From positions 2,207,157 through 2,271,156 of the forward strand of contig OV696605.1 in assembly GCA_927797885.1 (NCBI GenBank): a DNA stretch of 64,000 bases. Direction: 5' to 3'. The position numbers and the translations under genes are program-made. The stretch is from Gloeomargaritales cyanobacterium VI4D9. Lineage in GTDB: Bacteria > Cyanobacteriota > Cyanobacteriia > Gloeomargaritales > Gloeomargaritaceae. Within the stretch, counting starts at the first letter, position 1. Every line of letters begins with the position of its first letter. The notes beneath the pieces are model-generated. The model had not been told where the DNA came from. It did not search any database and worked only from the letters and a program-made list of their open reading frames with translations. Positions 8,901 to 28,438 of the stretch are shown in pieces.

Positions 8901-10374
<1,474 letters not shown>

Positions 10375-26474: not shown

Positions 26475-27559
26475 CGCCCCTGCACCAAAACCAATTCCGT
26501 CGGGGCACTGACTTCGTTGCCGAAGCGTCCCACCGCCCGTACCCGATATTCCGCCCCCGCTGGCACCACCCCCCGGTAGGGCACGGCAATTTCAAAACGA
26601 CCGTTCCCATCCGCCACCACATCCTGGTTCACCAGGGTTTGGGGGGCAACGGTGATCACCCCGCCCAAGACGGGCACCTGGGAAGTCACCCGGATTTGCA
26701 CCACCGCCCCCGGTCGGGTCTGCCCCACCAAGGTAAAGCCCCGGGTACGGATTTCGTCCCCACTGCGATGGTTGGTGAACTGGGGTTGCAAAGGGGTGAC
26801 GCTGGGGTTGGTGGGTGCCGGGGCAGGAACCGTGCCCACCGGCGGTACGGGCGTATTGGTCGCCGTATTCACAAACTCCACCGGCTGGGTCGCCGCCCCA
26901 TAGACCAACTGCTCATTCCGCTGGAGCCGCCCCACCACCGCCCCGTTGCGAAACACATCCCCGCTCCGCACGGTCAAGGTCGCCACATAAACCCCCGGGG
27001 ATACCTCCTGGGTACTCAAGGCTTCCGGTGCCCGTCCCTCCCGCACCAACCACACGGTCGCCTGGGCGCGGGGGGTGCCATTGATGGTGGCAAGAAACGT
27101 ACTGCCGGGTCCCAGGGGTTGGCTGTCGGCGTTGTGGGTAATGCTATTAATTTTCACCTGCGCCTGGGGGGGTTGCACCCGAAACGACCATTGCACCGTC
27201 CGGGTCGCTCCCCCTGCCCCCGCATAGGTCACCCGCACCGTATTGCGTCCCGTAGGCAAGGGACTACTGGGCTTATAGCTAAAAAATGTCCGGGTAATGG
27301 TACTTTGGCTGGTCACATCCCGGTCGTTGACCACGATCCGCACGGAATTGGGGTTCACCTGCCCCTCCGTAAACACGCCGGAAATCGAGGTATCCGGGGG
27401 CACTTGGCGGCTATCCGGCTCCGGGTTGGGGTCGCTCACCTGTTGCGCCAGGGCGATGGGAAGGGGCAACCCCGGCAAACCCGTGACCCCCAGCCCCCAC
27501 AGCCCTAAACCCAAAACCCCGGTGACAACCGCCCGTTTCACTTGCGCTCTGCTGTTCAT
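26471..27559 (-). CDS. secreted protein with Ig-like beta-sandwich repeats
   Basis: 362 aa from ATG 27559, chosen because AGGAG lies upstream and a signal peptide follows (KRAVVTGVLGLGLWGLGVTG...LAQQ). The mature part has at least three beta-sandwich-like modules: PPDTSISGVFTEGQVNP...TFFSYKPSSPLPTGRNTVRV, a middle module with NGTPRAQATVWLV, and C-terminal TLVGQTRPGAVVQIRV ... FEIAVPYRGVVPAGAEYRVRA. The Pro-rich hinge TPVPPVGTVPAPAPTNP links two of them. Likely periplasmic or cell-surface; function unknown. Coupled to argF by a 4-bp overlap, an unusual partner for an arginine gene. Confidence 0.75.
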   Translation of the reverse strand: MNSRAQVKRAVVTGVLGLGLWGLGVTGLPGLPLPIALAQQVSDPNPEPDSRQVPPDTSISGVFTEGQVNPNSVRIVVNDRDVTSQSTITRTFFSYKPSSPLPTGRNTVRVTYAGAGGATRTVQWSFRVQPPQAQVKINSITHNADSQPLGPGSTFLATINGTPRAQATVWLVREGRAPEALSTQEVSPGVYVATLTVRSGDVFRNGAVVGRLQRNEQLVYGAATQPVEFVNTATNTPVPPVGTVPAPAPTNPSVTPLQPQFTNHRSGDEIRTRGFTLVGQTRPGAVVQIRVTSQVPVLGGVITVAPQTLVNQDVVADGNGRFEIAVPYRGVVPAGAEYRVRAVGRFGNEVSAPTELVLVQGR

Positions 27560-27657: not shown

Positions 27658-27687
27658 TTGACATAGATTTTCATTAAGTGCTAGGGT
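27658..27687 (+). promoter_or_regulatory. sigma-70-type promoter for a short transcript
   Basis: Perfect -35 TTGACA at 27658-27663, 18-bp spacing, then extended -10 TGC-TAGGGT (TG at 27679-27680, hexamer 27682-27687). Followed 40-60 bp later by a strong terminator, so it would make a short RNA. Confidence 0.6.
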
Positions 27688-27693
27688 AATCCC

Positions 27694-27756
27694 AGAGTTC
27701 TCCTCTCTCAGATGGATACACAGGTCAGCCGGGGTGTCATACTCTGGCTCTTTTTA
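27694..27756 (+). ncRNA. candidate small RNA or attenuator leader
   Basis: Predicted start about 27694, end at the T-run near 27756, roughly 60 nt. Contains an unpaired-looking TTCTCCTCTCTC (27698-27709), complementary to AGGAG-type ribosome binding sites, which recalls the CU-rich central stretch of the cyanobacterial RNA Yfr1, although the Yfr1 core ACUCCUCACAC is absent. The 5' bases CCAGAGT (27692-27698) can also pair perfectly with ACTCTGG (27741-27747) of the terminator, so an alternative fold that breaks the terminator is possible. The next gene downstream starts at 28019. No protein is encoded. Confidence 0.5.
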
Positions 27757-27757
27757 T
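27727..27757 (+). terminator. intrinsic terminator
   Basis: Stem AGCCGGGGT (27727-27735) with ACTCTGGCT (27741-27749), 9 pairs including two G-T, loop GTCAT, followed by CTTTTTATT. The strongest Rho-independent terminator I found in the window. Confidence 0.75.
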
Positions 27758-28018
27758 TGAAATTTGTTTTTAATTTCCCAGCGGACAGGTTCACCCACTG
27801 GCACCAGCAGGACATTAGGGCAATTCCAAGCGATTTATGAGAAAAATTAAGACTGCTCAGGATGTAAATAAGTTTGCGCTATAGCATTTTTAAATTTTGG
27901 GTTGTCAAGCTATTACTTACAATTCAGATGATATATTATATTAATCAATGGGTCATTCCCTGGGGGGGTGCCGCCCGTTACAGGGTTAGAATGGGAGTGA
28001 CTTTTACTCCCGGTGGTC

Positions 28019-28438
28019 ATGCGTTACGTTTGGGAGCGTTTTCGTCAGCCGATGCCTACGGCACTCACCCTCAACCGGCAGGAATCCCTGACCGCCCTTG
28101 CCGCCGCTGTGATTGCCATTGATGATGAGGTCTTGCCGGTGGAACTGACCGAGCTTCGGGAGCAATTGCAATTAGCTGGGGTTGACCTCAGCCCCCCCCT
28201 GTTGGAGCGGGCGGCGCAGTGGGTGCAGGAGGTGGACCCCCTGGAGTTGTTTTGGGCGGGGGTACAGGGGTTGGTGCCCCAGGATCGGGAAATTGCCGTA
28301 CAGATGGTGGCACGTTTGGCGTTGGCGGACGGGGAAACTTTGATTGAAGAAAACGACCTGGTGGCACTCCTGGGGGAAACCCTGGGGTTTAGTCATCAGG
28401 AGGTTTGCCGTTTAGTACAACAGGCGACCCAGGCATGA
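28019..28438 (+). CDS. TerB-like helical protein
   Basis: 139 aa from ATG 28019. A mostly helical protein resembling the TerB/tellurite-resistance-like domain: SLTALAAAVIAIDDEVLPVELTEL (Asp pair near the start of the bundle) and MVARLALADGETLIEENDLVALLGETLGF, where the acidic pattern ADGxxxxeE is the usual divalent-metal-like TerB signature. Not a tellurite-resistance cluster here. Its last bases form ATGA with the start of ubiX, so it is coupled to ubiX. Confidence 0.68.
   Translation: MRYVWERFRQPMPTALTLNRQESLTALAAAVIAIDDEVLPVELTELREQLQLAGVDLSPPLLERAAQWVQEVDPLELFWAGVQGLVPQDREIAVQMVARLALADGETLIEENDLVALLGETLGFSHQEVCRLVQQATQA

Follow-up and report, generated by a model that had tools for sequence, protein, structure and literature searches.

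A predicted small RNA gene in a Gloeomargarita-like cyanobacterium, almost certainly IsaR1, with candidate pairing sites at petF1 and between isiA and isiB

The closest described counterparts of the element analysed here are IsaR1 (iron-stress activated RNA 1) and NC-181 of Synechocystis sp. PCC 6803, which we take to be one RNA. IsaR1 is produced by cyanobacteria under iron shortage; in PCC 6803 it is induced by iron starvation, and its published start is at position ~3164320. IsaR1 of Synechocystis 6803 was given as 68 nt (PMC6202907), and NC-181 as an iron-induced RNA of ~70 nt that may have homologs in very different cyanobacteria (PMC3516471). IsaR1 was further described as Fur-repressed and largely conserved among cyanobacteria (PMC7760821), with Fed1, PetJ, SufBCDS, SodB, PetABDC1, AcnB, HemA and ChlN among the named targets (PMC8136909). 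In the literature searched, IsaR1 was not mentioned together with Gloeomargarita, and a search with the letters of the seed described below returned nothing relevant. The enterobacterial RNA RyhB and PrrF of Pseudomonas resemble IsaR1 in being Fur-repressed RNAs that silence iron proteins and so spare iron; the likeness is one of logic only, and no sequence relation is claimed. Yfr1, also a short RNA of cyanobacteria, has a tract that is complementary to ribosome-binding sites, its motif being an unpaired ACUCCUCACAC.

The element lies between two divergent genes, which start at 27559 on the reverse strand and at 28019 on the forward strand of the 64,000-nucleotide stretch of DNA that was analysed (the window). 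The sequence-only reading had given this gap as 459 bp, and the size stood. It had also proposed a small RNA of ~60 nt, for which a stand-alone, conserved transcript of ~63 nt is now predicted, and a pyrimidine tract complementary to Shine-Dalgarno sequences, which was present. This tract, taken here as the seed, was invariant in all seven same-genus genomes, and in predicted folds only about half of it is unpaired (mean 0.50). The 9-bp terminator followed by a T-run was borne out by its fold (z = -4.6; none of 200 shuffles was equally stable), although the stem was counted as 10 pairs and not 9. It ranked first among 26 terminator-like sites in 16 kb, a number close to the shuffle mean of 23.2. 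Covariation in the terminator helix was not above that of shuffles, with only eight sequences to compare.

Features of the predicted small RNA gene and of its candidate pairing site between isiA and isiB (window coordinates unless a locus is named)
Feature	Position	Strand	Remarks
-35 box TTGACA	27658..27663	+	read from sequence; invariant in 7 same-genus genomes and in G007
Putative Fur box ACATAGATTTTCATTAAGT	27661..27679	+	overlaps the -35/-10 spacer; match to FurA consensus
-35/-10 spacer, 18 bp	27664-27681	+	read from sequence
Extended -10, TG-C-TAGGGT	27679..27687	+	TG 27679-27680, C, TAGGGT 27682-27687
Predicted small RNA (IsaR1 homolog), ~63 nt	27694..27756	+	both ends deduced from the -10 and the T-run
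Seed GAGUUCUCCUCUCUC, GTGTTCTC-type, anti-Shine-Dalgarno	27695..27709	+	complementary to petF1 and isiA-isiB sites
TTCTCCTCTCTC	27698-27709	+	read from sequence
Second pairing block AUGGAU	27712..27717	+	complementary to AUCCAU 5' of the petF1 ribosome-binding site; read from sequences
Intrinsic terminator	27727..27755	+	10-pair stem 27727-27749, 3-nt loop, then C, T5 27751-27755
isiA-isiB intercistronic region with purine-rich pairing site	L123 1420-1520 (G000)		also L124, L122, L125, L126, L127

The promoter elements named by the sequence-only reading (TTGACA, an 18-bp spacer and TG-C-TAGGGT) were all found in the sequence where it had placed them; its description of the promoter as unusually clear was overstated. 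The TTGACA of the -35 box is perfect, TAGGGT is identical to TATAAT at three of six bases, and the promoter was absent from the list of a promoter scanner, which reported 11 promoter-like sites in the region against 10.9 in shuffles. TTGACA, the greater part of the Fur-box stretch in the spacer, the TA...T of the -10 and the RNA core were kept in 7/7 same-genus genomes, and the TA...T in all eight aligned genomes. The promoter alone is not exceptional; it stands above chance because it is conserved.

Conservation was followed well beyond the genus, and the class-wide homology, like the Fur box, the terminator and the pairing sites, was obtained by computation. A blastn search with a 126-bp query against 59 genomes, the own genome included, gave matches in seven, which were exactly the own genome and its six same-genus relatives. 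A conservation search in related cyanobacteria had been proposed as a check on the RNA, and promoter and RNA core were indeed kept throughout these genomes, with GAGTTCTCCTCTCTCAGATGGATACACAG and TTGACA invariant in the alignment of all seven. In the one sister-genus genome searched, G007, model R1, which covers the RNA part only, matched a shorter form with the same promoter (E=4.5e-6). The reach of model R1 was otherwise limited to the genus and to weak matches; one of these, in G243, was without promoter and was taken as chance, and a run on the 11 genomes of family label f31 was unproductive. A 20-nt pattern with up to three mismatches was also searched in 388 genomes, and 30 of the loci were read; these appear to be chance hits. 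Guessed patterns for the Synechocystis copy, tried before model R2, gave no result.

Model R2, which comprises promoter, RNA and terminator, matched 132 of the 388 class genomes at E<=1e-3, with less than one false match expected, and 209/388 at E<=1, where chance matches are plentiful. The 132 include none of the 64 genomes with family label f2. In total, 49 homologs were read: eight training sequences and 41 others, the latter drawn from 124 non-training genomes at E<=1e-3 and made up of the 22 best-scoring loci and 19 chosen by hand. Two Synechocystis loci (L186, L187) were read but stand outside the 41, and L164, one of 20 loci retrieved, was omitted from the alignment, its genome, G142, being already represented. 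TTGACA was present in 39/41 non-training homologs. GTGTTCTCYTCTY, which is not the training-set form, was likewise found in 39 of the 41, and GGATCGGCA, absent from the training set, in 26. Since GTG before the seed and GGATCGGCA were absent from training, they are independent evidence of a real family and were not simply forced by the model. In the genus Synechocystis, three of five genomes were matched at E<=1e-3 and all five at E<=0.1, and GTGTTCTCTTCTCAAGGATTCAGT, with the same seed and following bases, occurs in 5/5. The median predicted length over the 49 homologs was 68 nt.

Two further observations were made while reading these loci. In three Synechocystis genomes (L181, L158, L187) the RNA gene lies directly 3' of a gene for an ldpA-like iron-sulphur protein (checked by Pfam in L181). 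Contigs C25, C182 and C215 of G206 (L028, L063, L066) carry near-identical seed-like copies, CGTTCTCTTCTCTCAGATAG, which are probably a dispersed repeat.

The sequence-only reading had the promoter elements right and overlooked the putative Fur box inside them, which is a pointer to iron. The consensus for Anabaena FurA is AAATAAATTCTCAATAAAT (PMC4788461). Against this Anabaena consensus, ACATAGATTTTCATTAAGT is identical at 14 of 19 positions, a score reached by none of 100 dinucleotide shuffles. A match of at least 13/19 was found in 45/49 homolog promoters (mean 13.8 vs 11.4 in shuffles); taken singly, only 29 of the 49 had a match at the level of <=5/100 shuffles. The isiA promoters of the same-genus genomes read (5/5) scored 15-17/19, while none of 352 background leaders from the own genome exceeded 14, and in G007 the stretch 5' of the start codon chosen by the same motif scored only 12. 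Many outer homologs (e.g. L151, L163, L154) have a second Fur-box-like motif, such as TTATTGAAAAATATTCTCA, just upstream of the -35 box, which was not evident in the Gloeomargarita-type copies.

On the basis of the Fur box, the median length of 68 nt, the anti-Shine-Dalgarno seed and the breadth of the family, the RNA was filed as IsaR1, which it almost certainly is; it was likened to the PCC 6803 RNA by description and not by alignment. The two have in common a Fur-box promoter, a length of ~63-68 nt, an intrinsic terminator, wide conservation, a CU-rich anti-Shine-Dalgarno seed and a pairing site at Fed1/petF1. They differ in the middle part, which is genus-specific here (AGAUGGAUACACAGGUC vs the common form GGAUCGGCAGG), in the pairing with sufB, of which nothing notable was seen here, and in the predicted isiA-isiB site, which is not in the literature searched for IsaR1. 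It is very likely that the locus is the IsaR1 gene of this Gloeomargarita-like cyanobacterium and that the scheme of Fur, iron and petF1 set out below applies to it.

A class-wide family of Fur-controlled anti-Shine-Dalgarno RNAs distinct from IsaR1 might be at hand instead, given that the likeness was drawn from published description and not from direct sequence comparison, and that PCC 6803 has another iron-induced small RNA, NC-1321, of ~80 nt (PMC3516471). However, one dominant, widely conserved, Fur-controlled RNA of ~68 nt with a Fed1 pairing site is what has been reported for IsaR1, and we consider a distinct family unlikely. The sequence-only reading had compared the transcript to Yfr1-type RNAs. 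As an analogy this was apt, since Yfr1, at 65 nt, is of similar length and both have a CU-rich tract complementary to Shine-Dalgarno sequences. As a family assignment it failed: ACUCCUCACAC is absent from 27690-27760, the control is different, and the Rfam 15 scan of the window returned nothing besides two tRNAs at the gathering threshold and, under permissive settings, one chance match to another family (E 5.1). Membership of the Yfr1 family is therefore extremely improbable.

An attenuator had been offered as the other possible function; it would be a 5' leader through which the downstream TerB-domain gene, starting at 28019, is controlled. This gene is on the same strand, with the terminator ~260 bp upstream of its start, and the claimed pairing of the 5' bases with the terminator arm does extend over 7 bp here. 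Such a 7-bp pairing was found only in the own genome, G000, and in G003, however, and is reduced to 4-5 bp in the other six of the eight genomes, while the RNA is kept everywhere. Similarly, the TerB-domain gene is kept only in G003, G004 and G005 (3/6 same-genus relatives), whereas G001, G002, G006, G007 and the wider homologs that were tested do not keep it; the divergent left gene is kept in G003, G004, G001, G002 and G006, and not in the wider homologs tested. Since neither the neighbours nor the alternative pairing are conserved throughout and the RNA is, the gene appears free-standing, and control of the TerB-domain gene is very unlikely. A small peptide gene beginning with the ATG at 27712 would fit the presence of an ATG after the seed in the window and in the same-genus relatives, but only 7/41 wider homologs have an ATG within the first 46 nt of the RNA, and the reading frame passes through the terminator stem; we give this reading hardly any credence. 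As judged from the genomes compared, the element is a stand-alone small RNA gene and not an attenuator.

Candidate targets were scored by duplex energies without accessibility, against a background of 361 leaders with automatically chosen starts, drawn from the window plus a further 400 kb of its genome. The ribosome-binding site of petF1, the gene for the major ferredoxin, is GAGGAGAA and is complementary to the seed in 8/8 genomes. Just 5' of it, the seven same-genus genomes have ATYCAT, which can pair with AUGGAU and so give a two-part match. In the own genome the petF1 pairing energy was equalled or exceeded by 6/361 background leaders, and any anti-Shine-Dalgarno RNA can be expected to pair with a purine-rich ribosome-binding site. 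Pairing with the sufB leader of the own genome was ordinary, 61 of the 361 background leaders being as good. The RNA may pair with ferredoxin and flavodoxin messages.

The ten strongest of the 361 pairings in the own genome included the leader of a gene at reverse-strand position 9913 (L231; AGGAGAGGAGCG before ATG), which is presumably psaA, with PsaA as its product. No other photosynthetic complex is as rich in iron as photosystem I. In G004, two plant-type ferredoxin genes are arranged in tandem (G004:C1:1462230-1462990; L209, L203), and the upstream one has AGGAGAAC, complementary to the seed, at its ribosome-binding site.

When the genus was searched for sequence complementary to the seed, attention was drawn to the gap between isiA (CP43-like, PF00421) and isiB (flavodoxin, PF00258). 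The isiB gene was found in 7/8 genomes and not in G005, which is 83% complete. In all six same-genus genomes with isiB, the gap can form a continuous 15-bp helix with the seed, and the helix ends 23-27 nt upstream of the isiB start; the isiB of G007 lacks a comparable pairing site at that place. The site occurs in the variants AGAGAGGAGGACTTT, GAGAGAGGAGAATTT, GAGAGGGGAGAACTT and GAGAGAGGAGAACTT, and every difference between them preserves pairing, partly via G-U pairs. None of the 361 background leaders paired as strongly, a comparison that is flattering because the site was found by searching for it; the retention of predicted pairing in sequences that have diverged makes the stronger case. 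Since an upstream ATG, out of frame, lies at Shine-Dalgarno distance from the purine run, the run could be conserved on other grounds. The available part of PMC12090762 places isiAB under Fur control and does not present it as an IsaR1 target, and the predicted site was not found in the literature searched; it is a new lead. Activation of isiB through the opening of its start (anti-antisense) was considered and was not supported: upon pairing, accessibility of the start increased in G000 and G003 from 0.46 to 0.60, which is within or barely above control windows, and was hardly altered in the other four genomes, so that there was no consistent effect.

In the proposed scheme, Fe-bound Fur would occupy the box between -35 and -10 and block transcription when iron is plentiful, and when iron is short Fur would leave and the ~63-nt RNA would be made. 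The pyrimidine seed would then base-pair at the ribosome-binding sites of mRNAs that encode iron-rich proteins, most clearly petF1, so that translation would be blocked and iron spared. Transcription, iron induction, Fur binding and repression are steps that we infer. A further point of action may be the isiA-isiB message, where the conserved site lies 23-42 nt 5' of the flavodoxin start. We suggest tentatively, at somewhat less than an even chance, that the Gloeomargarita IsaR1 also pairs with isiA-isiB and acts on both arms of the exchange of ferredoxin for flavodoxin, or is titrated by the isiAB message. If so, petF1 would be silenced and flavodoxin output set at the same time, either by altered translation of isiB or by cutting isiA from isiB; alternatively, IsaR1 itself would be titrated by an abundant isiAB message.

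IsaR1 is one of the main post-transcriptional regulators of iron use in photosynthesis. The RNA described here is almost certainly a new copy, in this cyanobacterium, of that known type, and it is unmatched in Rfam 15; a scan of 18 homologous loci gave no family matches, and the RNA is therefore missed by genome annotation. Gloeomargarita is the closest known relative of the plastid ancestor, and the presence of the RNA in it suggests that IsaR1 already existed close to the root of the plastid lineage. The predicted isiA-isiB site would tie the repression of ferredoxin to the control of flavodoxin through one RNA.
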